In this document: positions 1,913 to 61,491 of the stretch, one piece after another
Position numbering within the stretch: position 1 is the stretch's first letter
Layout of the letters: each line of letters opens with the position of its first letter
Assembly (NCBI GenBank): GCA_032622095.1
Contig: CP136062.1
Span: forward strand, 199,275,887 to 199,339,886
DNA from: Siphonodentalium dalli
Lineage: Eukaryota > Mollusca > Scaphopoda > Gadilida > Siphonodentaliidae
DNA length: 64,000 bases
Direction: 5' to 3'
The notes under the pieces: model-generated
Told to the model about the DNA's origin: nothing
What the model saw: the letters and a program-made list of their open reading frames with translations, nothing else
Database searches by the model: none
Made by a program: the position numbers and the translations under genes

Positions 1913-2325
1913 TGACCCGCCATATCAAATCCAGTCGTAAGTGGGGATTTTTTTTACCCTGTGCCAATGCATTCTATTATATATGCGAGTCGACCATAGG
2001 TCGCCTCGCATATATAAGAGAATGCATTGGCCTAACAATGTTTTATCATTTTTTTTAAATAAATGTTTCTTACAATTTTTAGGACATAAAATAAAAAACA
2101 TCCATTACCCTGCAGGGAGCGCCACATATATATAGAAGCATATAGAAGAGTGTCGTCTGCTCATGTTTGTCTGGGGCTCTGTATGGGTGAAATTATAAAA
2201 TTGTTAAAGAATACAAGAAAAAATTATTAAAATTGTTAGGCCAATGCATTCTCTTATATATGCGAGGCGACCTATGGTCGACTCGCATATATAATAGAAT
2301 GCATTGGCACAGGGTAAACAAAATC
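1913..2325 (+). mobile_element. Hairpin-core element, TGACCCGCC type, right end missing
   Basis: The left terminus TGACCCGCCATATCAAATCC is followed by a GGGATTTTTTTTACCCTGTG arm, a full 67-bp hairpin at 1964-2030, a 210-bp spacer, and a second hairpin in opposite orientation at 2241-2307. After CACAGGGTAAACAAA the expected right terminus is absent. The sequence then runs into a copy of the element's own left flank (CTCAGTCAACATAT at 1897 and 2329), so the next element abuts it through a local duplication. The spacer shares its TTCTTAACAATTTT-type AT-rich text and a GAGCCCCAGACAAACATGAG segment with the copies at 7643 and 14019. Confidence 0.8.
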
Positions 2326-2345
2326 TCAGTCTCAGTCAACATATG

Positions 2346-2514
2346 TGACCCGCCATATCAAATCCAGTCGTAAGTGGGGATTTTTTTTACCCTGTGCCAA
2401 TGCATTCTATTATATATGCGAGTCGACCATTGGTCGCCTCGCATATATAAGAGAATGCATTGGCACATGTTAAAAAAAATCCCGACTTACGACTGGATTT
2501 GATATGGCAGGTCA
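2346..2514. mobile_element. Short hairpin-core element, TGACCCGCC type, complete
   Basis: This is the simplest form in the window: 169 bp with a single hairpin (2397-2463). The flanking arms are perfect or near-perfect inverted repeats, TGACCCGCC at the left and GGCAGGTCA at the right. It is bordered on both sides by CATATG (2340-2345 and 2515-2520), read as a 6-bp target-site duplication. No protein is encoded, so movement would need a transposase in trans. Confidence 0.85.
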
Positions 2515-2659
2515 CATATGTCAGTCTGAATGATCTCTTGTTATGCGACATGCTGGATAAAAGGATATCCACATGGAACCGGTTTCGTACCTTCAGTTGT
2601 TTTGCAAAGGTATTTCCCTTAGAGCGAGAAATGCATCGTCCGTGCCAACGTTTTATCTC

Positions 2660-2905
2660 TTAACCATTTCGTGATTGGAGCTTCCTGGAATTTTGCGAAA
2701 ACCCTGTGCCAATGCATTCTCTTATACATGCGACTCTGCCATAGGGAGCCTCGGATATATTACACAGTACATTGGCATAACAAGATTTACATTGTTCTTG
2801 CAAGCCAGTACATTCTCTTATATGTGTGAGGCTCCCTATGTGAGACTCGCACTGGCACAGGGTCTTTTTGTTGCACCAGCGCAGCTCCCGCCATGAAAGT
2901 GTTAA
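2660..2905. mobile_element. Diverged hairpin-core element with TTAA ends
   Basis: The ends are TTAACCATTTCGTGATTGGA at the left and, read inward from the right, TTAACACTTTCATGGCGGGA. Both begin with TTAA, and the arms carry GGAGC/GGGAGC next. Two decayed hairpins occupy about 2709-2776 and 2807-2856, with the outer CCCTGTG/CACAGGG boundaries still legible. It is clearly older than the other copies. The related element at 10296 shares the CGGGAGC and TCATGAAAGTG end segments. Confidence 0.65.
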
Positions 2906-3518
2906 CTTGGCAATCATGACTCACGTTTGTATGGCCATCAATATACAAACGGGACAGCATGTGGAACAATATACAAAAGCAACATGTTCTTTTGAAGCTA
3001 TGGCCTTCAGCGGAAAGCCACATTTTTTCGGGGTTAATGGACGAGTGACTGAACATTCGGAATATAGAAGGTCGAACCAGATGGGCGGGATCTTCCAGTT
3101 TCCGAATGTCCAGTCGCGAGTCCATTAACCGACTTTAAAAAGCCCATTGTGGACTTTTCCCTTTATTCAGTCTGATGGCACGGGCCACAATGAAAACACA
3201 CTATACAGAGGTACATCCGGTCAATATAGGTTCATATATAGCGTATTTCAGATTCAAATAATGCCGATATGGGTTTATTTGTGTTTTTGAAGTAAGTTCA
3301 ATATGAGCTTAATTTGAGGAGAACAGGCTGAATTGAGAAATATCACGACTTTTTATGTATAAAAAATAGGCCTCGTCTGAGAACCAAATCAGTGTAGACG
3401 CGAACTATTTATCTGTTAGAGGTTTCCGTGGTACATTGTAGCTCATTGTGCATACATAGGGAGAGATGGAAGTTTTAGATTACGAATGTCGACTGGTGGT
3501 ATAACGCATGGTATAAAG
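2906..3518. other. Non-coding stretch with a partial foldback-like repeat
   Basis: No recognisable gene is present. The block at about 3205-3345 contains phrases such as AATAATGCCGATATGGG and GAGAACAGGCT. They resemble, in diverged form, the foldback at 58488-58740 and blocks near 47720-47880 and 48600-48700, so it looks like one old member of that dispersed family. Confidence 0.4.
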
Positions 3519-7642: not shown

Positions 7643-8014
7643 GTCGCCTCGCATATATAAGTGAATGCATTGGCCTAACAATTTTTTACAATTTTAATAA
7701 TTTTTTCTTGTATTCTTTAACAATTTTATAATTTCACCCATACAGAGCCCCAGACAAACATGAGCAGACGACACTCTTCTATATGCTTCTATATATGTGT
7801 GGGGCTCCCTGCAGGGTAATGGATGTTTTTTTTTATTTTATGTCCTAAAAATTTTAAGAAACATTTATTTAAAAAAAATGATAAAACAATTGTTAGGCCA
7901 ATGCATTCTCTTATATATGCGAGGCGACCTATGGTCGACTCGCATATATAAGAGAATGCATTGGCACAGGGTAAACAAATCCCGACTTACGACTGGATTT
8001 GATATGGCGGGTCA
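7643..8014. mobile_element. Hairpin-core element, TGACCCGCC type, left end truncated
   Basis: The sequence starts in the middle of the first hairpin (GTCGCCTCGCATATATAAG at 7643), so the left terminus and half a hairpin are lost. The spacer matches the 1913 and 14019 copies, including GAGCCCCAGACAAACATGAG. It is followed by a full hairpin at 7898-7964, CACAGGGTAAACAAATCCCG, and the right terminus GGCGGGTCA ending at 8014. Confidence 0.8.
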
Positions 8015-8060
8015 CATTTTGGTATGGTCTAGTTCAAGGGAGTGCAATTGTAAATTATTT

Positions 8061-8254
8061 GGTGGGGAACCACCCCTCCCCGACAAAAATCACCCACGTC
8101 CCATTATTCGGTGGGGAACTACCCCTCCCCGACAAAAATCACCCACGTCCCATTATTCGGTGGGGAACCACCCCTCCCCGACAAAAATCACCCACGTCCC
8201 ATTATTCGGTGGGGAACCACCCCTCCCCGACAAAAAACACCCACGTCCCATTAT
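8061..8254 (+). repeat. Minisatellite, 49-bp unit, four copies
   Basis: Units begin at 8061, 8110, 8159 and 8208 with GGTGGGGAAC(C/T)ACCCC and continue TCCCCGACAAAAATCACC. The copies are nearly identical, differing at single positions, so the expansion is recent. Because 49 is not a multiple of three and the unit lacks stops in several frames, it creates overlapping open frames at 7797-8291 and 7999-8274. These are artefacts and not genes. Confidence 0.95.
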
Positions 8255-10295
8255 TTTTAAATATAGTTTTCTGATAACGATTCAGCCGTAAATGTAACAA
8301 AAATCAATCACTTTAAAAGTATAAATTGGAATGTGAATTTGGGTGATATCAAGGATGTGAAGATCGACGATTAGATGACCCAATTATAAGATAGCTAAAT
8401 ATACATAATTTATATATCAGAAAATCTTGGACAAAACCATAATATCGTATCTCGATAACATCACAACGAGCCATCGATAGCTTACATTCATGTCAGGGCA
8501 AGAATGTTGTAGCTCCAGTAACACATATTAAGATGCTCCATACATCATAACATGCGTTTAAACAAGTATATTTAGTTGACTAAACATTTACGAAGACAAC
8601 GTAGCAAACCATTAATTAATAAGGGTGAGAATACAATGAAACAATGTTATTTACTTGCGATACCATTTCTTCCAAATTTCAGAATCTGCCATTCGTCAAA
8701 GTTTTTCCACGTGACGATTTTGGGTGGTGCAATTGGTCAAGGAGATACGACATTATATCACGGTGAAATTGTGCACACATAGACATACACAGCATTTATC
8801 GTGGGGACTGTTGGGCGAATGCACAGTTCAGGGGCATCAAATGAAAGAAAATATCGCGGCGATTCCAACGATACCAATATCTCATTTTATCACCAAAATG
8901 GACATACGACATTATAGTTATAAGGCAACGCTTAGCATCACGAGTAGCTTCGATGCCATGATAGCTGTTATTGTTCTGAAAATTATTTCGGCAAAAAAAA
9001 GAAGAATATGACATTCACAGAATAAAGGCACTGTATAAATTGTGTACCCCCGCTCCTTTCATAGTGTGATAAGCAGGGATGGCACAGTGATATAGGCACA
9101 CTGTTATGTGCAACAATGTGCACACCGTAGCCGTGGCGATGAAGTTATGGGCAAATGGCAAACTGACCGGCTCGAAGTCGAGTCATCGGAGCATATTATC
9201 CTTTATTGAACCTCTCTAGGTCTTAGGGCCGAATAAACTCAGACACTGACGATACATTACTAAATATTGGTTACTGATAGTTTGTCACATGCCTTTTAAG
9301 TAATCTTGGTGATCGATCGTGAGTCGGAAGAGAACAGCACGAATATGGGTTTACTTTACTTTTACAGTGCTGCTATCCGTGACCATATATTTGGCGCTCG
9401 AAGCATCGTAAATGACTATGCCATGGATCATGTTAATGGCAATATCGCATGTCCATTAAACGTACGGGGATGTTGGCATCGATTCTACTCAGAACGCAGC
9501 TGTCTAGGGGTCACCAGATGCAGCACCGTTGGTATCAAATGTATTGGAATAACCAAATATATGTCCCATGAGAGAATTGAGCTTGAGTGCTCGCCCAATC
9601 TAGGAAAGATTTGTCTATTTCATTTGCCCAAATTCAGCATCAAGCATCATGATACTGATAGAGAATGCAATTCAGAAGCATGAACATATATCGACATAAC
9701 ATTGTTGCAATGTTGGCTATTTAACTGATATTTCTGCTGTAAATATAAGTATCGATAACTATCACAGAAATGTCGTACTAACTTGACATTATGGGGAAAA
9801 CGGCACACAGTTAAAACGGCGACCCCTTTCAACGCTGCATATGTCAGCATTCGGACATCTCCCCAGTGATGCGGCCATGGACTAAACTAGGCTCAAACGG
9901 TAAATAATCAGAACAAAACGCACTTGAAATAAACACAAATTTTCACAAGGAGCCAACATTGATAAACGAAGAAAATCAAGACTGCTAGTGGATTTGATCG
10001 GGTCATAATAACCGCACGGCGTGAGACACATCAGCACCAAAACTGAACCATGAGCTAGGCCTGGTCGTTAACGTGATGCTTCGCGCGATATAATCGACCT
10101 AAATGGCCACCATGAGTACACTATTTCTCTCGGGATACATCCGATTGCCGTTTGCAGACTAACGATACTATTTCATAATAGGGGATGTTAGCTTATTCTG
10201 CTCGAAACCCAAACGGGGTGGTGTCTTTGAAGGTACCTGACGAGAGTATGTACTGCTAGGATGTATTCGAACCCCCGTTATCAGGTGCTCCCTCT
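8255..10295. other. Non-coding stretch; no supported gene
   Basis: Several frames of 60-125 codons occur (for example 9306-9683, +, 125 codons with scattered cysteines). None has a domain, splice context or coding-like composition that I can support. Confidence 0.45.
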
Positions 10296-10662
10296 TTAAC
10301 CCTCACAATGCGGGAGCTTCCATAGGTCGCATCGCATATGCAAGAGAAAGCATTGCCTAACAAATTTTATATTATTTTTTATAATTGTTAAAAAAAATGT
10401 AAGAAATAGTGATAAAGTTTGATAAATTGTTCAAGAATGTAAGACAAAATGATTAAATTGATAAAGAATGTACGAAAAATATTGATAAAATTGTTAAAGA
10501 ATGTAAGAAAAATGATAATATATTGTTAAAGAATATAAGAAATATTGATAACAATTGTTAGACCAATGCATTCTCTTATATATGCGAGGCGACCTATGGT
10601 CGACTTGCATATATAAGAGAATGCATTGACACAGTGTTTTTACCCTCCCGTCATGAAAGTGT
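10296..10662. mobile_element. Hairpin-core element with expanded spacer, TTAACCCTCACAATG type
   Basis: The left terminus is TTAACCCTCACAATGCGGGA (from 10296). The right end reads CTCCCGTCATGAAAGTGT, homologous to the 2660-2905 element. The first hairpin survives only as its second half (about 10323-10356). The second is complete (10563-10629), with one changed terminal base. The spacer at about 10357-10562 is made of repeated, slightly diverged ATTGTTAAAGAATGTAAGAA units. The right TTAA is not intact. Confidence 0.7.
10357..10562. repeat. Tandem spacer units inside the hairpin element
   Basis: About five to six copies of a 30-40 bp unit based on TTGTTAAAGAATGTAAGAAA lie between the half hairpin and the full hairpin. 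The same unit occurs once in the spacer of the TTAACCCTTTACCC-type elements. This links the element types and shows local expansion in this copy. Confidence 0.7.
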
Positions 10663-10690
10663 ACGGAACATATATACTAGTGCACGAATT

Positions 10691-11452
10691 TTTATGAAGG
10701 GATCAATGTTCATTGGTATAGAGGTTTTATAAAGATATCACTGTTCGTTGTAGATGTTTAATAAAGAGATCACTGTTCATTGTTAAGTAGGTTTAATAAA
10801 GAGATCACTGTTCATTGTTAAGTAGGTGTAATACAGAGATCAATGTTCATTGTTATAGAGGTTTAATAAAGAGATCACTGTTCATTGTTAAGTAGGTGAA
10901 ATAAAGAGATCACTGTTCATTGTTATAGAGGTTTAATAAAGAGATCACTGTTCATTGTTAAGTAGGTGTAATAAAGAGATCACTGTTCATTGTTAAGGAG
11001 GTTTAATAAAGAGATCACTGTTCATTGTCAAGGAGGTTTAATAAAGAGATCACTGTTCATTGTTATAGAGGTTTAATAAAGAGATCACTGTTCATTGTTA
11101 AGTAGGTGTAATAAAGAGATCACTGTTCATTGTTATAGAGGTTTAATAAAGAGATCACTGTTCATTGTTAAGGAGGTTTAATAAAGAGATCACTGTTCAT
11201 TGTTAAGTAGGTGTAATAAAGAGATCACTGTTCATTGTTAAGTAGGTTTAATAAAGAGATCACTGTTCATTGTTATAGAGGTGTAATAAAGAGATCACTG
11301 TTCATTGTTAAGGAGGTTTAATAAAGAGATCACTGTTCATGAGGTTTAATAAAGAGATAACTTTTCATTGTTAAGGATGTTTAATAAAGAGATCACTTTT
11401 CATTGTTATAGAGGTTTAATAAAGAGATCACTGTTCGTGTTATAGAGGTTGT
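10691..11452 (+). repeat. Minisatellite, about 35-bp unit, about 22 copies
   Basis: The unit is GTTTAATAAAGAGATCACTG plus TTCATTGTTATAGAG. Nearly every unit contains the hexamer AATAAA. Three linker variants recur (TTATAGAGGTTT, TTAAGTAGGTGT, TTAAGGAGGTTT) and partly alternate, suggesting amplification of two-unit blocks. The edge units are most diverged, and one internal unit near 11337 is shortened. There is no coding potential. Confidence 0.97.
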
Positions 11453-11561
11453 CGCTATTGTTGCTGTCGCGGCAGTTGAAATCACCAACATACGACGAAG
11501 GGAGTGACATATCAATCGGCACGCAATCTCGATGCTAAATCGAATCACCAGACAAATACAT

Positions 11562-11959
11562 TTAACCCTTTACCCAACAAACCGGCCAAAACCGGCCAAA
11601 TAAAGCTTCAACAGCCTAAAATATCTTCGGTCTGTCTCAATAGAACCATACAAATATGGATATAATTGGAACCGGCTCCTTGACCACATTGTGATAGTTA
11701 CAGTTATACCATGTGCCAATGCATTCTCTTATATATGCGAGTCGACCATAGGTCGCCTCGCATATATAAGAGAATGCATTGGCCTAAAAAAATCTTTTTT
11801 AACACTTTTTACCATTTTTTCTTACATTCTTTAACAATTTTATAATTTTTAATGTGTTAAGCCAATGCATTCTCTTATATATGGGAGGCGACCTATGGTC
11901 GACTCGCATATATAAGAGAATGCATTGGCACAGGGCCCTTCTGTTGGGTAAAGGGTTAA
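11562..11959 (+). mobile_element. Hairpin-core element, TTAACCCTTTACCC type, complete
   Basis: The ends are TTAACCCTTTACCCAACA and its inverted copy TGTTGGGTAAAGGGTTAA. A long left arm carries ACCGGCC direct repeats and AAATAAAGCTTCAACAGCC. It is followed by hairpin 1 (11716-11782), an 80-bp T-rich spacer, hairpin 2 in opposite orientation (11862-11928) and a short right arm. TTAA ends with CCC next fit piggyBac-type transposons in general, and no transposase is present. A 25-bp direct repeat also flanks it (11538-11562 and 11958-11982), which piggyBac insertion alone does not explain. Confidence 0.85.
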
Positions 11960-14012
11960 TCGAATCACCAGACAAATACATTCAACCCGAGGTGAATACA
12001 CGTTGATGAACGCGGCTCGTAGTTCTCCCATATGTACAGATTTATGAAGCAGATCTCAGAGGTGGCAAAGCTGCTATGATCGCACCGAGGAATAAATATA
12101 TGGACGTCAGCTACTTAATCGATTACTTTAGCGGCTCTATTACATTCAGCCATCTTGGGAAGAACAAATATTGGCAAACACTATATCACCCACAGAAAAC
12201 GGAGACAACTCACTTGATGCAGTGCTTTGATGATGTCGCAGTGAGACGTATCGCGGATGAATAATTCGTCCGTCTAATAGACGAGTCAAATCCGTGATTG
12301 ATCAAGTTAGAGCAAATGTCTCGCTGATAGTCTTCGTTCAGAAACTGATTAGAAGAGGCATCTATCTTTAAGCATTTATGTGGTAACAATGTTTCTATTA
12401 TACGCGGGTATTAGTACAATTCCAAATGGACGGGCATACATCATTACTGATATTTTGTGATTGAACGCATCTTTGATAAGGAAATCATGGCAGAACTACG
12501 ACTCTTCAGAATTAGAACATTATGCCATACGCTCTTTTGTTGTCATTTTGATGGTGCACATGGTCTTGAATGTTTTGGTGTATTTGGGACCATTGGTTGC
12601 TGGTTTTGATGCCGGCGAGGGTGTGTATCGTTTTCTATTATTACAGGTGTACTGGTACGGTGGCGGCAGCGGCTGATGTATGGTATTTGTAAAATTCAAA
12701 AACCATTACACATCGTCTTACTACAACTCAAGTAAATAAAAGTGAAAAACTATTGCAGATGTGACAGCAATTACAAATTCATTTACAACGGTTTTTAAAA
12801 CTTACTAATACAATAAAAATACAATACAATTGAATACAATAACCGTTCGTAATATAAAGACTGATTTACATTATTCCAAACAAGATGACAAAAAGAAACA
12901 TCAGCCTGAAAATAAGCTCATATTTAACTTATTTTAAAAGCACAAGTAATCCCTTATCGGCATTATTTGAATCTGAATTACTCTATATAAACACTAATCT
13001 ACTTACCAGTACACTCTTTATAAATATACGTTATAAGCCCGTGAAATTTACAATGAGTGATGCGTTTCTCTTACCAATTAAATATGTGGTCAGTCTTACA
13101 AACCTGATCTGGTAAATACCAATCAATACTCCATAGTCTTCAGCTTCAGTGATCGATTAATCGGAACTCTTATCTATATTTATTTGTGCCGAACCACGAC
13201 ATTTCAATTGACGTTTGTGTTACTCTTGGAATAATTGAAGAGCACACTACTCTTCTCTTATGTTGTGCATTATTCCTACGTATCTGATTTATTCCATACA
13301 TTTTTTATTGTTTATGCCATTATGGCAAAGGGGATGTCAGATCTAGTAATCTCTTACTGGGTGGATAGCACCACACTGAATCACTGACCCACCGGACTAG
13401 CAGGAAAATACTAGTATGAAGGATCAGCTGGTAACCGAGAGTTACCCCTCGGCTATCTATAAGTCAACAAAGGATATAGGATAGTAAAACGGCCGATCAT
13501 TCTGTCGTCATATATTTATTCCATACATTCGAAGCCGGTTTTATAATATCACGAGCAGCACTTTCGACCAATGTTAAGTTATTCAACGGGGTCCTGTTAC
13601 TGACCATTATATAGTTACTTTAAATATATGTTAGTTGTTACCTGGGCAGTCAAACGTTCTGTCGTTAACTATATTTTTTCATTGTGTTGGTGAGGGGGGG
13701 GGGGGGGGGGGTTACGAAATATGCCACTGTTCAGGACGGTAACTATAGGATTTCGACGAAAAAGCAAAGGTCCATGTAATTCGTCTAAATACCCCCACCC
13801 GATCTGAAGTTTTAGCATGGAGTACTCGGTATTACAAACTGTTCTGATTTAATTATTAGCGTTTATATCTTTGGCATGATGTGTCGCACCTGTCTTCGGC
13901 GTCGCAAGGTCCCTGCTTGCAATTGCCTTTGTGAGAAAACATGATATCACAGCCCATATTAGTAATGATCACCTCGGCGGACAAATCACTTGTTTCAATA
14001 ATCTGGAGTGCA
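11960..14012. other. Non-coding stretch
   Basis: There is no supported gene. A CGCAGTGAGACG(T/C)ATCGCGG segment at 12237-12256 recurs at 19454-19473, next to another hairpin element. A run of 20 G lies at 13694-13713. Frames at 12461-12676 and 12885-13115 have no motif. Confidence 0.45.
13694..13713. repeat. Poly-G tract, 20 G
   Basis: This is the longest homopolymer in the window, preceded by GGTGA. The assembled length of such runs is often unreliable. Confidence 0.9.
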
Positions 14013-14018
14013 TAATTG

Positions 14019-14465
14019 TGACCCGCCATATCAAATCCAGTCGTAAGTCGGGATTTTTTTTACCCTGTGCCAATGCATTCTCTTATATATGCGAGTCGAC
14101 AATAGGTCGCCTCGCATATATAAGAGAATGCATTGGCCTAACAATGTTTTACAATTTTTAATAATTTTTTCTTGTATTCTTTAACAATTTTATAATTTCA
14201 CCCATACAGAGCCCCAGACAAACATGAGCAGACGACACTCTTCCATATGCTTCCATATATGTGTGGGGCTCCCGGCAGGGTAATGGATGTTTTTTATTTT
14301 ATGTCCTAAAAATTGTAAAAAACATTTATTTAAAAAAAATGATAAACAATTGTTAGGTCAATGCATTCTATTATACATGTATGTATATGCGAGGCGACCT
14401 ATGAGAATGCATTGGCACAGCGTAAAAAAATCCCGACTTACGACTGGATTTGATATGGCGGGTCA
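14019..14465 (+). mobile_element. Hairpin-core element, TGACCCGCC type, near complete
   Basis: The ends are TGACCCGCCATATCAAATCC and GGATTTGATATGGCGGGTCA. TAATTG borders both sides (14013-14018 and 14466-14471), a second apparent 6-bp target duplication. Hairpin 1 is complete (14070-14136). Hairpin 2 is damaged (about 14358-14415): its centre is partly deleted and ATGTATGT has been added. The spacer matches the 1913 and 7643 copies. Confidence 0.85.
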
Positions 14466-14471
14466 TAATTG

Positions 14472-19494: not shown

Positions 19495-19896
19495 TTAAAC
19501 CCTTTACCCAAAAAAACGGCCAAAACCGGCCAAATAAAGCTTCAACAGCCTAAAATATCTTCGGTCTGTCTCAATAGAACCATACAAATATGGATATCAT
19601 TGGAACCGGCTCCTTGACCACATTGTGATAGTTAAAGTTATGCCCTGTGCCAAATGCATTCTCTTATATATGCGAGTCGACCATAGGTCGCCTCGCATAT
19701 ATAAGAGAATGCATTGGCCTAAAAAAAATCTTTTTTTAACTCTTTTTACCATTTTTTCTTACATTCTTTAACAATTTTATAATTTTTAATGTGTTAAGCC
19801 AATGCATTCTCTTATATATGCGAGGCGACCTATGGTCGACTCGCATGTATAAGAGAATGCATTGGCACAGGGCCCTTCTGTTGGGTAAAGGGTTAA
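19495..19896 (+). mobile_element. Hairpin-core element, TTAACCCTTTACCC type, complete
   Basis: The left end is TTAAACCCTTTACCC, with one extra A, and the right end is GGGTAAAGGGTTAA. The long arm is on the left. Hairpins lie at 19650-19717 (one extra A in the outer arm) and 19799-19865, in opposite orientations. The encoded peptides seen across it also appear at every other copy and are not proteins. Confidence 0.85.
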
Positions 19897-21457: not shown

Positions 21458-21856
21458 TTAACCCTTTACCCAACAAACCGGCCAAAACCGGCCAAATAAA
21501 GCTTCAACAGCCTAAAATATCTTCGGTCTGTCTCAATAGAACCATACAAATATGGATATCATTGGAACCGGCTCCTTGACCACATTGTAATAGTTACAGT
21601 TATGCCCTGTGCCAATGCATTCTCTTATATATGCGAGTCGACCATAGGTCGCCTCGCATATATAAGAGAATGCATTGGCCTAAACAAATTTTTTTTTAAC
21701 ACTTTTTACCATTTTTTCTTACATTCTTTAACAATTTTATAATGTTGAATGTGCTAAGCCAATGCATTCTCTTATATATGCGAGGCGACCTATGGTCGAC
21801 TCGCATATATAAGAGAATGCATTGGCACAGGGCCGTTCTGTTGGGTAAAGGGTTAA
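21458..21856 (+). mobile_element. Hairpin-core element, TTAACCCTTTACCC type, complete
   Basis: The ends are TTAACCCTTTACCCAACA and TGTTGGGTAAAGGGTTAA with TTAA on both sides. The long arm is on the left. Hairpins lie at 21612-21678 and 21759-21825. This is one of the best-preserved copies and a good reference for the type. Confidence 0.88.
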
Positions 21857-27930: not shown

Positions 27931-28302
27931 CGGCGATGGGTGAGCGTATAGCTGTTTGTATTAAATGGACGGACGACAGTAAACTATCTCTCTCTCGTAT
28001 GTATATACCTACGTGTAGCTGGGTCGCTGGAATGTGACAAAGGCGAACACTGATCGTCAAATTGCACGCCATTGTCAGTATTCGAATCGAAGTGTTATCG
28101 GACAGACGACCGTGCCTTATCTAATCCATTACTCATCGTAGCCAATGATATGCAGATATAATTTTATATTTATCCACATACATGTATAATCAAATAAGAG
28201 ACAGAAGTGAAGAGTTGAATGAGGGAAGCAGATCCCAGTTTGGATTCAATATATTGTAATGAGTAACCGATCAGAAATTTACCAAACGAGCTTAGCTGTA
28301 GC

Positions 28303-28667
28303 TCTTTACCCAACAGAAGGGCCCTGTGCCAATGCATTCTCTTATATATGCGAGTCGACCATAGGTCGCCTCGCATATATAAGAGAATGCATTGGCTTAA
28401 CACATTAAAAATTATAAAATTGTTAAAGAATGTAAGAAAAAAATGGTAAAAAGTGTTAAAAAAAGATTTTATTTAGGCCAATGCATTCTCTTATATATGC
28501 GAGGCGACCTATGGTCGACTCGCATATATAAGAGAATGCATTGGCACAGGGCATAACTGTAACCATCACAATGTGGTCAATGAGCCGGTTCCAATGATAT
28601 CCATATTTGTATGGTTCTGAGACAGACCGAAGATATTTTAGGCTGTTGAAGCTTTATTTGGCCGGTT
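28303..28667 (-). mobile_element. Hairpin-core element, TTAACCCTTTACCC type, both ends clipped
   Basis: Orientation is opposite to the 21458 copy, with the long arm on the right. Hairpins lie at 28329-28395 and 28478-28544. The left end begins at CTTTACCCAACA without TTAACC, and the right end stops at GGCCGG, about 30 bp short of the usual TTAA. Compared with sibling array units, roughly 85 bp of array sequence between GTAGCT and TTTCAATTTCCC is also missing. End loss and a target deletion therefore accompany this copy. Confidence 0.8.
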
Positions 28668-30430
28668 TCAATTTCCCACCGACAACTAGCAACGTTTTTT
28701 CAAAAGTAGCTTTCTAAGTATTGTTTAACATTAGGTCGAAATTAAATATCAAGCATCACAGATGATACACGTCATAAACAGAGTGGCGTATAAGCAACGT
28801 GATTTCTTTCTAAACTCGATCACTACAATCAGTTTGTGTATGCACCTCAAGTTCGCTTAATTGTAGATCCCATATGTATCGACATGGTTGGTTCACCAGC
28901 GTCTGACAAATGCGAACACTGATTTTCAGACTGCACGTCGTCACCAGTATTCAAATTGAAGGGTTGTCGGACAGTTGGCCGTACCTTATCTAATAATGTG
29001 TTCATCGTAGCCAATAATCCGCAGACGATTCTGATAGCACTCGACCTATAATCAAATCAGATAAAAACATTCGGCGATGGGTGAGTGAAGCGTATGGCTG
29101 TTTGCAGTCAATAGATGGACGACTGTACGCGCTCTCTCTCTCTCTCTCCCGTATGTATAGACCTACATGTAGCTGGTTCGCCGGAATGTGACAAATGCGA
29201 ACAATGATTTTCAGACTGCATGTCATCACCAATATTCAAATTGAAGGGTTGTCGGACAGATGACTGTGCCTTATCTAATCAATTACTCAGTATGGCCAAT
29301 CATCTGAGGACTAAGTTGATAGTTATCGACATATTATCAAATAAGAGAATGAAGTGAAGAGTTTAATTAGGGAAATATAACCCTGTTTGGGTTCATTATA
29401 GTGTAATGATTAACCGAGAAGTTTAGCCAGCGAGTTTAGCTGTAGCTTTATTATTTTTTACTTCTGATTAGAAGAGGGCCACTCGCTCCGGTCCATCCAG
29501 GACGATTTGTGCCGATTTCAGTTTCCCACCGACAACTAGCAACGGTTTACCAAAAGCAGCTTTCTAAGTATTGAATATCATTAGGTCGAAACGAAAAATC
29601 AAGCATCACAGATGATACACGTCATAAACAGAATGGCTTATTAGCAACGTTATTTCTTTCTAAACACGATCACTTCAATCAGTCTGCGTTTGCACCTCAA
29701 GTTCGCTTAATTGCATATCCCGTACGTATCGACATAGTTGGTTCACTGGAATGTGACAACGGCGAACACTGATTTTCAGGCTGCACGCCATCACCATGCA
29801 GTATTCAACTGAAGGGCTACCTTTTATCTAATCATGTATTGATCAGAACCTATCAGACGAATCTGAGAGATCTCGTTCTACATGTATAATCAGATCATAA
29901 CCTTGTTTGGAAATGAATTGATCACGATGTGCGACGCAATGACTCGTTGCATGTCGATTGCGAGACGATTAATCAATGTCGAACATATTTGCCCCAGGGA
30001 CCCTAACACACCGATACGTTCAGGCTGCATGCCATCACGAGTCTTTAAGCTGAAGGGCCATCGGACATGCGCCCGTGTTGCCTTTGTGCACTCATCGTAG
30101 CCAATCTCATGAAAACGAATCTGATAGCACTTAACCTATAACCAGATCGGATAAAGATATTGGTCAATGGGTGGGGGAGCGTAGCTCTGTTGATCTATAA
30201 TGGCATGTGAGGAGTAACTGAGCATATTTTCCCCAGTGTGCTTTACACACTGATACGTTCAAGTTTCTAGACACCACGGGTCTTCAAATTGAAGCGCTAT
30301 CAGGCAGACGACCATGTTGTCTATGATCATGTACCCATCATAGCCAATCATCTGCAGACGAGTGTGATAGCTCTCAACCTATAATCAAATCAGAGAAAGA
30401 CGTTGGGGCGATGCGTGAGTGAAGCGCGGG

Positions 30431-33752: not shown

Positions 33753-34152
33753 TTAACCCTTTACCCAACAGAAGGGCCCTGTGCCAATGCATTCTCTTAT
33801 ATATGCGAGTCGACCATAGGTCGCCTCGCATATATAAGAGAATGCATTGGCTTAACACATTACAAATTATAAAATTGTTAAAGAATGTAAGAAAAAATGG
33901 TAAAAAGTGTTAAAAAAATATTTATTTTAGGCCAATGCATTCTCTTATATATGCGAGGCGACCTATGGTCGACTCGCATATATAAGAGAATGCATTGGCA
34001 CAGGGCATAACTGTAACTATCACAATGTGGTCAAGGAGCCGGTTCCAATGATATCCATATTTGTATGGTTCTATTGAGACAGACCGAAGATATTTTAGGC
34101 TGTTGAAGCTTTATTTGGCCGGTTTTGGCCGGTTTGTTGGGTAAAGGGTTAA
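33753..34152 (-). mobile_element. Hairpin-core element, TTAACCCTTTACCC type, complete
   Basis: The short arm is on the left (TTAACCCTTTACCCAACAGA) and the long arm on the right, ending TTGTTGGGTAAAGGGTTAA. Hairpins lie at 33784-33850 and 33932-33998. The right arm keeps two intact GGCCGGTTTT-type direct repeats. TTAA flanks both ends. The sequence right of it (34153-34186) is inverted relative to 37222-37256. Confidence 0.88.
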
Positions 34153-34541: not shown

Positions 34542-34683
34542 AATACACACGTAGTGTTTCTGAATACCAAATTTACACCACGAGTGGGATTGATGATTTA
34601 CCACACGAGCTTTAGCGAGTGTGGTAAATCATCAATCCCACGAGTGGTGTAAATTTGGTATTCAGAAACACTACGTGTGTATT
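34542..34683. repeat. 142-bp near-perfect palindrome
   Basis: The arms are about 65 bp with only two mismatched positions, around a 12-base loop (GAGCTTTAGCGA). The left arm begins AATACACACGTAGTG and the right ends CACTACGTGTGTATT. CACGAGTG occurs in the same direction in both arms, which causes the two mismatches. No convincing target duplication was found. It lies 408 bp beyond the stop codon of the recombinase gene, so it may be a foldback element or part of that mobile unit. Confidence 0.92.
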
Positions 34684-39299: not shown

Positions 39300-41700
39300 G
39301 AACGGCCTTTTAAAGTGTTGTATCTTATCGGGTTTCGTGTTCAAGTGCTCGTTTCATTAGAAGCCACTTGGTATCGAACATATTACGTTCAAGTCTGCAG
39401 TATGCATTGTATTTTTCGCAATTATACCTAAAGTTGAATTCTGCAATTTAATTAAAGCATTCATAGACAATTGGTCCGTTGTAAATTTTGTTTTGTAAAT
39501 ATAGTTTTTAATAATGTTATCCGTTCGATTGCTCATGTTTCCAAGCGTAATTGTCTTTTTTGTTAAAGGAATGACGAAATTGTTTGATATTGTCCATTTG
39601 GAAAGCTTGTCTAGGAATGATTGAACATGCGGACACTCCCAAAATGTGTGGCATATCGTTTCTTGTGTTTGACATCGGTTGCAAAGATCGTTTTGTCTAA
39701 ACTTGGCCAGTTTTATAAATTTATTGGTAGCTAAAATTCTACAGTTTATACGAAATTGAAGCCAGTGTAATTTAGTGTCAGACGTGGACTGGAATGGGGC
39801 CTTGAAGCAAATATCCCATGTAATGTTGTACTCCCCTAGTTTGGATTCCCATTTCGAGCACACGTCCAGTTTCTTGTTTCTCGACACTAGACAGTTGTAA
39901 AAATCACGCCCATCTTTCGCATTGCGTAATTATAATATGTAATTACTTGGGAGGATTGGTGCCATCAGGGGATTATTAGGTTGTTTAAGGGTTTGACACG
40001 TTTTCTGCTTGTCGAAGAAGCGCATGCAAGGTGATTAAATGTCGATAAGAGGGAATGTCTAGTGTGAAATGTGCCATCAGTCTGGAAAAGATCGTTAACG
40101 AAAATGATTCCATGTTCTCTCCATGTCCGTATATTTAGTGTCGAACCATTTATTTTAAAATGTTCATTATTCCATAAAATTGAAGACAGTAAGGGTAGGG
40201 TCTCTTTTTCTGCTACCAATAGCTCAGACCAGGCGATAAGGACATCTCTCCAGAAAGGATTCTGGATGCGGGCAGAATATAGCTTTAAGTATTGGCCTCC
40301 ATATGCAAGAAAGAGGGGATCTTCGTCTATTGGTAAATCTACAAGGGGGTGCCATTTCGGCCGTTTCAGTATAATTCGGCGGATCCATGTTATCTTCATA
40401 GATGAATTAAAAGCTTCGACATCAACCATTTTCAGACCCCCTGCTTCGAAATTTTGGCAGAGTTGGGTTCTTTTAACTCTGTCTCGTTTTCCTCCCCAAA
40501 CAAAGTTAAACAGAATCGTTTTTAAATTTAGCTTTGAGTCGTAGTTATCTAATATTTTATCAAGGTTGGTATTATATTTGATCCCTAATAGAGTAAAGGA
40601 GTTGGTGAATTGTACATGTAGTTCAGGGCATACATGTATGTTGTGTGTATTTCCCTTCAGAGCCCCAATCCACGATGCCTGACATTTACTGTGGTTGATA
40701 TTCAGTCCTGACACCGAGGCGAATTTGTCTATTGTACTATAAGATTCTAATAGACTTTCCTGACTGTCATTGAGGATCAGCGTTGTATCGTCTGCGTACT
40801 GTGTAATTTTATATTATAAACCACCGAGGATTATTCCTTTAATTTTAGTGTTTTGTCTCATTAGGATACCTAGAATTTCTGAGGATATATTATTGTAGAA
40901 AATGGATATCCAAGACTTGATTGATTCACCAAAATTAAAAACATCTAGGCATTCATGTATGAATGACCATGATACAGAGTCGAAAGCATTTTCAAAATCT
41001 ATTAATAGCAGCATTCCTGGTTTTGATTCTTGCTCTGTTTTTTTGAAGATTGTCGTATATATGAGTCTGGTGTTGTCTTCAATAAATCTATTTGATCTGG
41101 GTCTATTATTACAGGTAAAACTTTTTTCAGTCTATCTGCTATGCAAGCTGATGCTAGTTTATATGTCACATTCAACAGTGAGATTGGGCGCCAGTTTTTT
41201 AGGAGTTGCCTGTCTTTGTCTTTCTTTGGAATAAGAGTGATCAAGCCCTGTTGTTGTGTAATGGACAGCTCCCCGGTTGTAATTGATTCATTTAGGGATT
41301 CCAAGAGAATGGGACCTAAATCTACCCAAAAGAACTTGAAGAATTCTACTGTATAGTCATCTGGACCAGGACTTTTGCCGTTCTTTGTTCGTTTCAACGC
41401 AAAAGTTAGTTCATTAAGGGTTATGGTGCCCTCTATGCTTTCAGACAGTTCGGGGGATAGCCTGGGGACATTTTCGTTACGGGTGATTTCGTTGATTTGT
41501 TGTTTATGGACCGGTCGGTGTGAGTAAAGATTTTTGTAAAAGCTACGCGCCTCATTGATGATTTCTGTCTGGGACGATAAGGTGTTGCCTGAGTTATCGT
41601 TAAGGGATGTTATTGTCTTAGATACATAATTCCTTTTTTCTAAATACTGGTACTTACTAAGAGAAGATCTGGGGAAAAGAACCAATAGTTTATGAGAAAC
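39300..41700 (-). pseudogene. Decayed LINE, L1/Tx1-like, 5' truncated
   Basis: Minus-strand frames give a reverse transcriptase in order. FYKNLYS lies near 41520 and LKRTKNGKSPGPDDYTVEFF near 41340-41400. NWRPISLLNVTYKLA lies near 41145-41190 and LIDFENAFDSVSW near 40965-41005. YADDT is at 40787-40798, in a frame different from its neighbours, and SGLNINHSKCQ lies near 40680-40710. A C-terminal Cys/His segment CNRCQTQETICHTFWECP lies near 39630-39700. The RQGDPLSP region is deleted between ...NNISSE and ILGILMRQN (near 40860). At least three frameshifts separate the pieces (about 41010, 40813 and 39890-39965). No endonuclease domain is present and the 5' limit near 41700 fits normal LINE truncation. 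The 3' limit is approximate. Confidence 0.9.
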
Positions 41701-48304: not shown

Positions 48305-48549
48305 TTAACCCTTTACCCAACAGAAGGGCCCTGTGCCAATGCATTCTCTTATATATGCGAGTCGACCATAGGTCGCCTCGCATATATAAGAGAATGCATT
48401 GGCCTAAAAAAATCTTTTTTTAACACCTTTTACCATTTTTTCTTACATTCTTTAACAATTTTATAATTTTTAATGTGTTAAGCCGATGCATTCTCTTATA
48501 TATGCGAGGCGACCTATGGTCGACTCGCATATATAAGAGAATGCATTGG
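48305..48549 (+). mobile_element. Hairpin-core element, TTAACCCTTTACCC type, right end lost
   Basis: TTAACCCTTTACCCAACAGA begins the short arm. Hairpins lie at 48336-48402 and 48483-48549, the latter with CCGATGC for CCAATGC. Directly after the second hairpin the expected CACAGGG and long arm are replaced by unrelated sequence, so the copy is truncated exactly at the hairpin edge. Confidence 0.82.
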
Positions 48550-49214
48550 CATCTGTATCTGTGTTTTCACTGCAGTCCACAGAACGCAGTCCGCGCCAGT
48601 CAACAACATAGTGGGCATATATTTCAGAAACAAATAAGTCCAATATGAACCAATGTGAATATTTAGGTCCAATACGAACCTATTTGCACGAGGAAATCTT
48701 GGACGAAGATGACTGAAATCCTGATACTTTATTCATCAATACCGTTAGACCTTCTGACATGGATCCCAGTGTTGACTTAGCGTTAAGAGAATTTAGTCTA
48801 TTGGTTTTCTTCTGGATATTTCTCTTCCAATTTTATAGAGCGTGATGCGCATCCGATTTGATGGCTCGAAATTGGCGAGGCGTATAAGCAAGAGTGTGGA
48901 CATAGATTTGTTTACTAGTGAATGTATAGTTGTCTGCAGGTTATCAGAAAGTCGTCACTTCTTATAACATTTTACTATCTTGACCAGTGTATAGATCTAG
49001 TGTAACGATCCCTCAATGGTATACATACTGTAACTGCATTGGCTAAACACTCCGAGAGTTTGTTTTCTAGCCTGTGACTCTACGCTGTGTGATCACCCCA
49101 CCATGTCCTACAGCTACTTTAGTTTACCTACATGCAACTTTGAGCACCGTTTGTTCGTATAAGATGCAACAATGTGACAGGGATGTGGCATGCATGGGGA
49201 GAACGCCATTATGT
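48550..49214. other. Non-coding stretch
   Basis: Only AGTCCAATATGAACC-like phrases near 48640-48690 are notable; they recall the foldback family at 58488. No gene was seen. Confidence 0.4.
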
Positions 49215-52640: not shown

Positions 52641-52854
52641 TTGCTTCAATGCGTCGAGTTCCGCTGCAGAGAATACAAAACTGACAACATTTTGAAATGT
52701 AAGCAGGCTTCAAACTCATCTTATCCAAGAAAAACTCTGGTTACATAAGAAATTTGTGTATAAGGTGTACGCGCATTTGTTGCGTTAAAAACCAAAGGTC
52801 TCAAGTCAAGGTCCAAATCCCCAACACACTGTTGTGAGGTTTAACTCCATCTAC

Positions 52855-53375
52855 ATACATTAATGTCCAAAGTAATTGATCACTTAACCACAGCAAAATT
52901 ATGGGTATTTTTTCATGATTTTAAATCCTGAAAAATTACCCATAATTATGCTGTGGTTAAGTGGTCAATTACTTTGGGCATTACTGTAACCAATATAAGG
53001 ATTTGAGGTTTAATGATAACTCAATCCTCATACAGTAATGTTCAAAGTAATTGACCACTTAAGCACAGCAGAATAATGGGTAATTTATCAGGATTTTAAA
53101 TTGCTGAAAAAATACCCATAATTCTGCTGTGGTTAAGTGGTCAATTACTTTGGGCATTACTGTAACCAATATAAGGATTTGAGGTTTAATGATAACTCAA
53201 TCCTCATACAGTAATGTTCAAAGTAATTGACCACTTAACCACAGCAGAATTATTGGTAATTTTTCAGGATTTTAAATCCTGACAAATTACCAATAATTCT
53301 GATGTGGTTAAGTGGTCAATTACTTTGGGCATTACTGTAACCAATATAAGGATGTGAGGTTTAATGAGAACTCCA
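52855..53375 (+). repeat. Three tandem 175-bp units, each a foldback
   Basis: Units begin at 52861, 53036 and 53212. Each contains an inverted repeat of about 115-125 bp. The left arm starts CAGTAATGTTCAAAGTAATT (or ATTAATGTCC in the first) and the right arm ends AATTACTTTGGGCATTACTG. In units 2 and 3 the foldback is bounded by TA, with CAGTAATG next, as expected of Tc1/mariner-type ends and TA target sites. The joining 50 bp (ATATAAGGATTTGAGGTTTA) is also repeated, so the units arose by tandem duplication and not by three separate insertions. Confidence 0.92.
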
Positions 53376-54253
53376 TCCACATAACTAATAAATATGTGTG
53401 AAAATTAAAACAAAACAAAATAAATTCCACGATGGCGTCCAATATGGACTGCCTAATTCTGCTCCAAAACATGTATATTGAATATATAGATGTTTATTGG
53501 GGGATACCGATTATTTCAATGATATTTTCATTAACTGGGATCCAAAACCCGACATACGGGAGCGTGCTTCGCGCGCGACTGTATCTTAAGCATATGTGCA
53601 TATTTAATAAGCCAACAATTGGAATCCCAACAGAGAAGATTGGCGTGGGTCCCTTGTGCGATCTGTCGATCGAAAACTATTTAGACATCTCAAGACACGT
53701 AAGACCCAATAACGTAATATACAGAATAGATACATCTATTGCCTGGGTGACTAATATTTATATGTGTTACAACGAGGTCAAATAGTTGCGAAGCCAGCAC
53801 CACAATTCTTTCCCTCCATAGTAAATCTTAAAACAACTTCTAAAGAATTATTAATTTACCTTACATTTGGTATGGAGCGTCCTTGGTTTACTGGAGTTCA
53901 GATTTGTTAACATCACGTCACCAAGTTAATTACATGCGAAGCCACAGCCATAACTATTTCCCTCCATAGTAATTCTCAAAACAACTTCTTAAGAACAATT
54001 GACCAGGTCAGTCGCGCAATTATTGGAAGAGCCACGGTCAATCATTTTTAAAAAACCAAATGTTACATATAAATTATTGCTTTATTTAATTAAATGAGAA
54101 AATTAAGTTTTACTACTTGCTAAATTTTATCTTTTAATTATTTCATTTAAATTTTAGTATTTACAGTATACTAAGTCCAAGTCTTTATAATCTGTTGAGT
54201 GACCCCACAGTCGTTTACTTGCTTTGTTAGTAATAATTTGAAGGATTACTTGT
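53376..54253. other. Non-coding stretch with a 148-bp-spaced duplication
   Basis: TGCGAAGCCA and TTTCCCTCCATAGTAA, then AAAACAACTTCT, occur near 53787 and 53935. The 117-codon frame at 53432-53785 ends just before it. It has a hydrophobic start and no recognisable domain, so I do not call it a gene. Confidence 0.45.
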
Positions 54254-57804: not shown

Positions 57805-58045
57805 GCCAAACGAAGAACACCAGGTTTGCCTTTTTGTGTTAACGTGTTATGTTTTCTACATTGAATAGGAAATGGTGTGATATCATAAAAAAAGTGCATA
57901 CTTGTCGGGTGGATACCATTGGAAAAGTCAAAATTTTATTTTGCGTGCTGTTAGGGATCGGCAACATCCGGATTCTCAAATGGGAACAGTTCAGCCTCAA
58001 ACAAATTGTGGTCCCATAAATTCGGTGGGGGTGGGGACACATCGC
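57805..58045 (-). repeat. Dispersed repeat R2, copy b
   Basis: This is the inverted homologue of 49215-49455. It includes GAAGAACACCAGGTTTGCC, TCTACATTGAATAGG and CATCCGGATTCTCAAATGGG. Frames at 57839-58168 are shadows of this repeat. Confidence 0.75.
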
Positions 58046-58487: not shown

Positions 58488-58740
58488 CGAATCTAAAATA
58501 AGCTTATATGCCTTATTCGTGTTATGTTCCAGTCTGTTTTCGTGAAGATAAGCACAATACGGGCTTACCTCACATTGAAATAGACCCATAGAGTGTTGTT
58601 TTATAACCATCGTTTTGCCCATATAGAGCGTTTTTTAGTTTTCAAATAATGCCAATATGATTTTATTTCGCGCAATTGTAAAATAAGTTCGTATTGTGCT
58701 TATTTTCACGAGAACTGGCTTGACCTTAAATGACACTCCA
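58488..58740. repeat. Foldback repeat
   Basis: The left arm (CAGTCTGTTTTCGTGAAGAT, AAGCACAATACGGGCTTA) pairs with the right arm (TTCGTATTGTGCTTATTTTC, ACGAGAACTGG) around an AT-rich loop. Diverged relatives occur near 3205-3345, 47720-47880 and 48600-48700. Confidence 0.65.
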
Positions 58741-59654
58741 TTGTTATGAATTTTTGTTGTCATTTGGGTATGCATTAGTAAACAGTTGACAGTGGACCAA
58801 CCACCCTCGGGAAGGAAATGATTAACACCTGCTGTGAGCGCGAAGCTATGGAACTGCCAGTGAGTTGTCGCATTGGGGTGGTTCGACCTTAACACTCGGA
58901 CGTATGGACCGTAAGACTGTTCATTGAACAAATAAATCGGAGATTACTAATTTATCAAGAGTGAAACCAAATACTTGGTGAACAATAGCGGTCTGCTTCA
59001 TGTGATCAAATCTCCTTTTAGGAACTAATCAATTTAACTCCATTCAATAGAAGCTGTGTAACCTGTGTCCCATTCACTCGACAATAACGTTTATTAATAG
59101 ATTAGTTTGCCACTCGATTGAGATCGCATCCGATTAGCAGGAATACTCTGCGCAACTTCATCAGTTGACATCCGCTACATGTCAACGCCGGACATGATGT
59201 CCACACTAGCTGTAGATAGTATCTTCAATTGATTGGCGGATCATGGTATATACACCGAACGGTAGGAAGCAGATGGTGGTACTGGTCCCACCGAGCCTTC
59301 TACCACGCCATACCAGACTGCAGAAACTATAGTGTAGTTACCATGTCGTGAAATGCAGCGACATTAAATCATCAGATATTTTCTCAACTGGTATTCTGTA
59401 TTTAGCCGTTTGCGGTAGCATAACATTGTAGAGTGCGAGCACCGACGATAAGTTGTGAGATCAAATCTCCTTTTGGAAACTGGTCAATTAAAATCAGTTC
59501 AGGCAACACTGTGTCCCATCAGCAAGGCATTAATGTTTAATAGCAAATTACGCAGTTTCTTTGAAAAGCCGACGAAAATCCTGATGGATGTACGTTTCTA
59601 GATTTGTGATTTAAAATCAGTTTCTGTATTGATGGAATTCCCTCCATTTCATTG
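58741..59654. other. Non-coding stretch with a duplicated segment
   Basis: GATCAAATCTCCTTTT(A/T)GGAA followed by CTGTGTCCCAT occurs at about 59005 and 59459. No gene was seen. Confidence 0.45.
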
Positions 59655-60940
59655 GAGAGTGGAGCAGAGTACGCGCGATTGGTAATTTGCTTAACATTGG
59701 TTAACATTGGTTACTGGCATAACAGATCACTTCACAGACCAGAGGTCAATGACATATGTTGTTATTTTCTCACGCATTGTCAGCTAGATGACTTCTCACT
59801 GATAAACATAATCTGAATCGTTACGCGGTTCCCCCCGGAGGTTTAGTTTCGTTCCTATAGACTACAATGTAATAGCAGGAAACTCTAACTATGGTTAAAT
59901 TGTACATCGGCTTAACCCTTTACCCAACAAACCGGCCAAAAACGGCCAAATAAAGCTGCAACAGCCTAAATTATCTTGGGTCTGTCTCAATAAAGCCATA
60001 CAGATATGGATATCATTGGAACCGGCTCATTGACCACATTGTGATGGTTACAGTTATGCACTGCGCCAATGCATTCTCTTATATATGCGAGTCGACCATA
60101 GGTCGCCTCGCATATATAAGATAATGCATTGGCCTAAATTTTAACACTTTTTACCATTTTTTCTTACATTCTTTAACAATTTTATAATTTTTAATGTGTT
60201 AAGCCAATGCATTCTCTTATATATGCGAGGCGACCTATGGTCGACTCGCATACATAAGAGAATGCATTGGCACAGGGCCGTTCTGTTGGGTAAAGGGTTA
60301 ATTTACCATTTTTATACACAATACTCATTAAGGAGTAGTTCATTAGGTCGTTTGTTGAAATTATGAACACTTGTATTATCTTTTCGTCTGGCTGTCGTCT
60401 GCTAATTTATCCTGAACATCCCTCCAAATTAATAATAGACCATTACAATGTAAACCATTATAACTGAATGGGATAAACCATTTTGCATAGAAAGGTTTAA
60501 ATAATGTCGGGAACCGTATCAATATATGACATGTTTGAATTGAAACAAGTCTTATAAAGCGTCAATGACGTATAGTAAACACTGAACCGATGTTCGTCGA
60601 TACTGTGAAGTTCGATGTGCAATGTCAATGGCCTGTACAATCTTGCACACTATGACTCACACTTCCGGGAAGATGGGGCTACCTACAAATTAGTTTGTAA
60701 ACAAATAAAATACGAGTCACCATGCTCGAGAGAACCATTGATTTCGGCATTTCGTGTTGTTGAGATATTTGCAAATTCAATGTTTATCAGTGAGCAGTCA
60801 TCTAGCTGACAATGCGCGGGAAAATTATCAACATAATTATGTCATTGACCTCTGGTCTGCGAAGTTATCTGTTATGCCAGTAACCAGTGCTACGCCAATT
60901 AATCAATCGCGCGTACACTGCTCCACTCTCCAATGGTAAG
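59655..60940. mobile_element. Inverted repeat (about 155-bp arms) enclosing a hairpin-core element
   Basis: The left arm 59655-59812 (GGAGAGTGGAGCAG, ATTGGTTACTGGCATAACAG, CAGAGGTCAATGACAT, GTCAGCTAGATGACT) is inverted at 60784-60940. The loop of about 970 bp contains the element at 59912-60301. This resembles an older non-autonomous foldback that later received the hairpin element. I could not define its target duplication. Confidence 0.7.
59912..60301 (+). mobile_element. Hairpin-core element, TTAACCCTTTACCC type, complete
   Basis: The ends are TTAACCCTTTACCCAACAAA and TGTTGGGTAAAGGGTTAA. The long arm on the left has more substitutions than the 21458 copy (for example AAAAACGGCC, AATAAAGCCATAC). 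Hairpins lie at 60066-60132 and 60204-60270. The spacer is shorter, having lost part of its A/T run. It is an older copy. Confidence 0.86.
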
Positions 60941-61100
60941 AATGATGACAGATAGCAGAACCCGAAAGGTGAGCAGACTTAGATATTTTTGGGTAATTTT
61001 ATTGCATTTGTATTCCCAAACTTCATCGACAAAATAATGGCAAAAATAGTTATCAGGTGAGTTGCACTAGGCTGATAACTGTACTTCAAGGCATAATTGT

Positions 61101-61491
61101 TTAACCCTTTACCCAACAGAACGGCCCTGTGCCAATGCATTCTCTTATATATGCGAGTCGACCATAGGTCGCCTCGCATATATAAGAGAATGCATTGGCT
61201 TAACACATTAAAAATTATAAAATTGTTAAAGAATGTAAGAAAAAATGGTAAAAAGTGTTAAAAAAAGACTTTTTTTAGGCCAATGAATTATCTTATATAT
61301 GCGAGGCGACCTATGGTCAACTCGCATATATAAGAGAAAGCATTGGCACAGGGCATAACTGTAACTATCACAATGTGGTCAAGGAGCCGGTTCCAATGAT
61401 ATCCATATTTGTATGGTTCTATTGAGACAGACCGAAGATATTTTAGGCTGTTGAAGCTTTATTTGGCCGGTTTTGTTGGGTAAAGGGTTAA
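61101..61491 (-). mobile_element. Hairpin-core element, TTAACCCTTTACCC type, complete
   Basis: The short arm is on the left and the long arm on the right. TTAA is on both sides. Hairpins lie at 61132-61198 (perfect) and 61280-61346 (several changes: CCAATGAATTA, GGTCAACTCG, GAGAAAGC). The right arm has one GGCCGGTTTT unit where the 34152 end has two. Confidence 0.87.

Follow-up and report, generated by a model that had tools for sequence, protein, structure and literature searches.

A 64,000-nucleotide stretch of the genome of the scaphopod mollusk Siphonodentalium dalli (contig CP136062.1 of GenBank assembly GCA_032622095.1, positions 199,275,887 to 199,339,886), referred to here as the window, carries 14 short elements that share one interior, an inverted pair of 67-bp hairpins separated by an AT-rich spacer, within outer ends of different types. 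There is good support for a single interior whose ends have been replaced at least once. The shared interior, the unlike ends and target duplications, the stronger conservation of hairpins than of spacers in two of the element types (A and B below), and single recombinant-like copies can all be read directly from the sequence. The favored explanation, with a probability of roughly 0.55, is palindrome-driven recombination, in which an inherited double-hairpin interior of miniature inverted-repeat transposable elements (MITEs) would have had its hairpins homogenized and its outer ends replaced. Three possible alternatives, namely, a cis role of the interior in transposition, nested insertion, and a structural function, are ranked below it.

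The hairpin consensus is self-complementary at 62 of its 67 positions and has an ATA loop and one T/C mismatch, which points in the same direction in all 19 copies displayed for comparison. The window contains 22 near-full copies, a diverged full-length copy at positions 2709-2775 (82% identical to the consensus), and 4 partial or rearranged copies (2805, 7643, 10308, and 14359; elements and hairpins are named here by their first positions). These 27 copies are distributed over the 14 elements, which are non-coding, range from 169 to 447 bp, and are in some cases damaged. None of 10 simulated windows that kept the dinucleotide steps contained a palindrome with arms of at least 18 bp, a loop of 1 or 3, and no more than 2 mismatches; the real window has a handful of other palindromes besides the 67-bp hairpins. 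The inverted hairpin pair, or its remnants, is found in 13 of the 14 elements, and a single hairpin is found only in 2346-2514. An earlier sequence-only reading of the window had reported 22 full and 5 partial or diverged hairpins in 14 elements, most of them with two opposed hairpins, and the recount agrees. Its statement that CCCTGTG is always on the outer side of the hairpin has to be relaxed: the motif is exact at 18 of the 22 near-full hairpins, has one or two changes at 3 (10563, 11716, and 60066), and is gone at 1 (48483). The inner side, described as CCTAA/TTAGG or TTAAG, reads C(C/T)TA(A/G) or TCTAA at 21 of the 22, the exception being the single-hairpin element.

Three types of elements can be distinguished: A, with 8 members; B, with 4; and C, with 2 (Table 1). 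The TTAA target duplication is present at both ends of 5 of the 8 type A elements (TAAA stands on one side in 1, and 2 are damaged), and their tips read CCCTTT at 13 of the 16 ends, CTCTTT at 1, and are lost at 2; type A therefore has both the CC[C/T]T terminal motif and the TTAA duplication of piggyBac/TTAA MITEs. Type B ends have the form TGACCC..GGGTCA, and a 6-bp target duplication flanks both of the type B elements that keep both ends (2 of the 4), one of which sits in a local duplication. In type C, TTAA is duplicated at both ends of 1 of the 2 elements, and the tips, compared with the piggyBac motif CC[C/T]T, are CCATTT and CACTTT in 2660 and CCCTCA and CACTTT in 10296. The two C elements resemble each other in their arms, with a score that none of 1000 shuffles reached.

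Table 1. Hairpin-bearing elements of the window and two of their parts, in window coordinates
Feature	Positions	Strand	Details
Type A, complete	11562..11959	+	TTAA at both ends; hairpins 11716-11782 and 11862-11928; 31-nt direct repeat on either side
Type A, left tip TAAACCC	19496..19896	+	Hairpins 19651-19717 (one-base insertion) and 19799-19865
Type A, complete	21458..21856	+	Hairpins 21612-21678 and 21759-21825
AT-rich spacer of type A element	21679..21758	+	~50 bp aligns with spacers of type B and of C element 10296
Type A, ends damaged	28302..28671	-	Hairpins 28329-28395 and 28478-28544
Type A, complete	33753..34152	-	Hairpins 33784-33850 and 33932-33998
Type A, apparent recombinant	48305..48552	-	Hairpins 48336-48402 and 48483-48549; outer arm past the second hairpin missing
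Type A, complete	59912..60301	+	Hairpins 60066-60132 and 60204-60270
Type A, complete	61101..61491	-	Hairpins 61132-61198 and 61280-61346
Type B (TGACCCGCC end)	1913..2345		Hairpins 1964-2030 and 2241-2307; right end lost, then a copy of its own left flank up to 2345
Type B, single hairpin 2397-2463 amid two outer arms	2346..2514		6-bp duplication CATATG
Type B, broken within the first hairpin (match from hairpin position 37)	7643..8014		Intact hairpin 7898-7964
Type B, both ends	14019..14465		6-bp duplication TAATTG; hairpin 14070-14136, rearranged hairpin 14359-14415
Type B centre	14197..14290		~24-bp stretch matching diverged hairpin 2805
Type C, TTAA at both ends, tips TTAACCATTTCGTG and TTAACACTTTCATG	2660..2905		Two diverged hairpins, 2709-2775 and 2805-2851
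Type C, damaged	10296..10662		Partial hairpin 10308-10355, tandem-repeat spacer, intact hairpin 10563-10628

The shared unit consists, in this order, of CCCTGTG, a hairpin, C(C/T)TAA, the AT-rich spacer, and the CCCTGTG-hairpin-C(C/T)TAA block in inverted orientation. A homologous stretch of ~50 bp is common to the type A spacers, to those of three type B elements (14019, 1913, and 7643), and to that of the C element 10296, and in its best part A is ~86% identical to B and likewise to 10296; none of 300 shuffles reached the scores, and blastn finds the match as well. Since the spacers align at this level, there is one homologous interior, larger than the hairpin alone, and, judging from these alignments, the shared module is the double-hairpin interior, at least in types A and B and in the C element 10296. 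The outer arms of A and B are no more alike than expected by chance (the short-arm score was reached by 1000 of 1000 shuffles and the long-arm score by 642 of 1000). The arms of A and C match at the tips alone, where the similarity exceeds chance only slightly (scores reached by 62 and 37 of 1000 shuffles), and C and B arms have an 8-nt stretch in common, with a score reached by 91 of 1000 shuffles. Because the A and B arms are unrelated and their target duplications differ, ends would have been exchanged or captured at least once, and at least one end replacement between type A and type B is likely. Types A and C, both with TTAA and similar tips, may belong to one superfamily, their arms being alike at most at the tips.

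The sequence-only reading had regarded the hairpin as a core exchanged between, or captured by, unrelated transposons with three kinds of ends. A shared module does exist, and it lies within at least two unrelated end types with unlike duplications, but it comprises both hairpins with their spacer rather than the hairpin alone. Three unrelated carriers are not upheld, A and C both being TTAA elements with similar tips, and neither is capture by independently existing transposons, because A and B arms in the window occur solely with the core.

The same facts can be viewed in another way, with a single ancestral element whose ends merely diverged and whose core was kept as a cis requirement for transposition, i.e., as a site for the transposase or a host factor. 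The TTAA duplications and weakly similar tips of A and C agree with such descent, as does the lack in the window of A or B arms without the core, and a cis role for a conserved interior was proposed by the authors who described the coral CMITE elements (PMC2872659). However, type B has a different duplication length and unrelated 44-bp arms, and a cis role predicts neither the flipped spacer nor the hairpin-tip breaks described below, which makes this explanation unlikely.

The core, taken from CCCTGTG to CACAGGG, is symmetric, with inverted repeats of ~79 bp, and its CCCT fits the piggyBac tip motif (PMC2872659), so it could have been a transposon in its own right, which entered several unrelated MITEs and was then carried by them. 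Layering of this kind does occur, as the type B centre contains another hairpin-like stretch, which matches hairpin 2805 (score 16.5 for 14197-14290; 0 of 1000 shuffles in each of two B elements); matches of this centre to hairpin 2709 and to the consensus are not significant (93 and 37 of 1000 shuffles, respectively). Nevertheless, by eye, no target duplication stands beside the core in A, B, or C, the outer arms of type B mirror one another up to the core boundary, which is unexpected of random insertion, and the window has neither a lone core nor core-free A or B arms. Nested insertion is thus an improbable origin of the shared interior. The sole core-free C-like tip in the window is a 19-nt match (E 0.005) to the left C tip of 10296 at 31800-31818, which has no hairpin and is part of an unrelated tandem repeat, itself diverged. 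In the surrounding 1200 bases, neither a hairpin nor a second C arm scores more than 9.5; the match was discounted and is probably due to chance.

Evidence on how the interior has evolved comes from the comparison of hairpins with spacers. There are no fixed differences between A and B at the 67 hairpin positions and 6 at the 47 positions of the spacer block (Fisher p 0.004; 21 of the 22 hairpins, 7 of the 8 A spacers, and all 3 B spacers were used, the omitted hairpin and A spacer each bearing a one-base insertion), and within type A (7 of the 8 copies, the truncated 48305 being left out) there are 8 substitutions among 938 hairpin positions versus 41 among 1805 elsewhere (p 0.009), with neither statistic taking the kinship of copies into account. 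Mean hairpin distances are 0.018 within A, 0.021 within B, and 0.024 from A to B; the copies are too alike for a hairpin tree to be resolved. For the spacers, the A-B distance comes out at 0.155, a value raised artificially by a one-base shift in 14019; the ~86% values are from gapped alignments. In the C element 2660, both hairpins (2709-2851) carry the centre variant GGGAGCC, unlike the consensus; their sharing of this variant suggests homogenization within the element.

As a group, the elements look like layered mosaics, and two of them, 48305 and 2346, look like hairpin recombinants in their structure. In 48305, the short arm is joined via the hairpin to the side of the spacer on which the seven other A elements have their long arm, and its inner flank is CCTAAAAAAAT, while the remaining 7 short-arm hairpins have CTTA(A/G)CACATT. 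The lone hairpin of 2346, located between two outer arms, is the structure expected from a deletion between two hairpins. Breaks within hairpins are found near the centre (position 34), at the junction 36|37 in 7643, at 32|33 in 14359, and, less surely, at 30|31 in 10308. The last is ambiguous, since ATGCG fits the hairpin and GCGGGAGC fits the C arm, leaving two sure tip breaks and one possible one. If breaks were spread evenly, the chance of their falling this near the centre, computed after the breaks had been seen, would be ~0.008 for two of two and ~0.002 for three of three. Seven A copies offer four informative sites. The 4 pairs of sites that lie across positions 135-211, an interval covering most of hairpin 1 (155 to 221), do not fit a single tree, and the 2 remaining pairs do.

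Under palindrome-driven recombination, the core would have been inherited as the interior of a single group of non-autonomous DNA elements of the fold-back type. The outer ends recognized by the transposase would have been replaced at least once, giving rise to two forms, one with TTAA and CCCTTT ends (piggyBac-like) and one with TGACCC ends and 6-bp duplications. Because the hairpins are palindromic, the two inverted copies within an element, and copies in different elements, match in either orientation. A hairpin that is extruded should stall replication or have its tip opened, and repair templated by another copy could then make hairpins alike by conversion, flip or delete spacers, and swap flanks. 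A parallel is provided by the palindromic AT-rich repeats at human translocations, which break at the centre and are joined to another such repeat (PMC4255720); these differ, however, in being several hundred bp long, chromosomal, and not parts of mobile elements. We infer the opening of tips, repair from another copy, the manner of the first end replacement, and movement by transposases encoded elsewhere. The boundary of that first replacement is outside CCCTGTG and hence not within the hairpin. A more sweeping version, in which the palindromic module would spread between transposon superfamilies through its own fragility, with tips opening, repair from any copy, and ends being traded until one interior reaches transposases of both the TTAA class and the 6-bp, integrase-like class, appears doubtful.

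Several observations weigh against palindrome-driven recombination. The events on which it draws are few (one swap or inversion, one deletion, and two or three tip breaks) and were chosen post hoc, and the copies are related, so that the Fisher tests overstate their independence. Hairpins differ slightly more between A and B than within either type, and copy 61101 has 4 changes in one hairpin and only a deletion in its long arm. The hairpins of the C element 2660 are strongly diverged from the consensus (82% and 81%), and homogenization therefore does not extend to every element; the 29-nt spacer of this element resembles those of A and B no more than expected by chance (scores reached by 62 and 54 of 300 shuffles). 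Finally, neither an empty site nor an autonomous partner was seen within the window.

The stability of the fold, -50.9 kcal/mol as RNA, could also mean that the hairpin is maintained for an RNA or DNA structural function, for example, as a small-RNA precursor, promoter, or replication start. In 2660, changes at hairpin positions 29/39 keep the pairing in both hairpins, and those at positions 30/38 keep the pair in hairpin 2805 (both by eye), as expected of a maintained fold, but the same element has pair-breaking changes at positions 26 and 30 of hairpin 2709 and at position 31 of hairpin 2805, and paired changes are also produced by templated repair within a palindrome. Among the 22 near-full copies (17 substitutions, one of them an insertion artefact at 19651), no pair is changed on both sides, and Rfam gives no RNA family for the hairpin at the gathering threshold. 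Such maintenance is therefore quite improbable. Selection for replication, transcription, or silencing, which the sequence-only reading had considered possible in place of passive carriage, is neither shown nor needed, palindrome recombination accounting for the data at least as well.

The closest precedent, and a close one, appears to be that of the Acropora coral CMITE families I-VI (PMC2872659): they are short TTAA elements with differing ends and one conserved interior, which is more alike between families than the ends are, and conservation of the interior across types with different ends is found here too. A related type, CMITE-IN, is flanked by 23-bp direct repeats (PMC2872659), in the way that the A element 11562 is flanked by a 31-nt repeat. 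However, CMITEs are ~100 bp long, with TTAA and a 75-bp interior (PMC2872659), whereas the elements of the window include a second, 6-bp, duplication type, and their interior is an inverted pair of 67-bp palindromes. A search of the window with the 60-bp CMITE consensus gave nothing better than E 2.1, and the interior sequence is unrelated. What goes beyond the CMITE case is the pairing of palindromes, the additional type of duplication, and the recombinants visible here; the account in PMC2872659 leaves the origin of the CMITE interior, and its being more conserved than the ends, unexplained. The TTAA duplications and the CCCTTT ends of type A are shared with piggyBac/TTAA MITEs (PMC2872659), from which the elements differ by the long palindromes inside both ends; no transposase family was recognized in the 15 scanned open reading frames (ORFs) of the 19 in the window with at least 110 amino acids. 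As for type B, GingerRoot elements have 6-bp duplications and ends that are mostly TA..TA and occasionally TG..CA, and IS3EU elements have 6-bp duplications and ends that are given as always TA..TA in the description of these termini in PMC10045372. The TG..CA ends of type B do not agree with IS3EU; its 6-bp duplications together with TG..CA ends suit GingerRoot, whose ends are mostly of the other form, and a relationship to GingerRoot can serve as a lead only. Highly conserved domains of short interspersed nuclear elements (SINEs), including the V domain found in the MITE MER6, are likewise conserved modules in otherwise different mobile elements, with exchange as one proposed reason (PMC6887750), but their sequence is different, and the MER6 module is attributed to the insertion of a SINE into a Tc1/mariner MITE (PMC6887750).

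Exact patterns of the hairpin and its outer flank retrieved 0 stretches from viral contigs and 0 from bacterial and archaeal genome contigs, neither collection being animal and both possibly lacking entries from the genome of the window itself. A protein search with the hairpin in its four open frames had one candidate and no match, and an exact-sequence search of the literature with a 20-base piece of the hairpin returned 0. Double-hairpin elements of fungal mitochondria are also mobile; they are organellar and are not known to have target-duplicating ends. No comparable shared double-palindrome interior was found among the matches listed in the open-licence literature on shared interiors, palindromic elements, and bivalve MITEs, among which, judging from titles and the openings of abstracts, only the CMITE and MER6 papers looked close.

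The window, with 39% G+C, is animal DNA that bears transposon relics. Repeats adjoin several of the elements: the 31-nt direct repeat at 11538-11568 and 11958-11988 brackets the A element 11562, the second copy ending in TCAACCC, and resembles coral CMITE-IN or the remnant of a tandem array; a 49-bp unit is repeated four times at 8054-8255, immediately outside a type B element; and an array of ~22 copies of a 35-bp unit (10690-11450) adjoins the damaged type C element. Other palindromic sequences include a distinct 58-bp hairpin at 34584-34641, GTGGGATTGATGATTTACCACACG..., and approximately three tandem 175-bp units at 52842-53383, possibly a TTAA fold-back element turned satellite; every unit includes a palindromic stretch, 109 bp long in the best one (53219-53327), that holds CTTAACCACAG...TGTGGTTAAG. 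On the minus strand, positions 35092-36708 contain an intact reading frame of 538 amino acids with DUF3504 and, below Pfam's cut-off, a phage-integrase match; the predicted protein is like a tyrosine recombinase or a KIAA1958/QRICH1-like protein, and its best named matches include bivalve and then coral proteins, the top one being from Mytilus edulis (47% identity). No database match at E 0.001 was found for a 423-amino-acid ORF. The broken reading frames at 39357-41685 (minus strand), one of which has a reverse transcriptase match just under Pfam's cut-off, are probably a retrotransposon relic.

How short non-autonomous elements acquire new ends, and hence new transposases, is an open question. 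The palindrome pair described here suggests a testable cause for the conservation of a shared interior, namely, that it may result from palindrome-driven repair and conversion rather than from selection.

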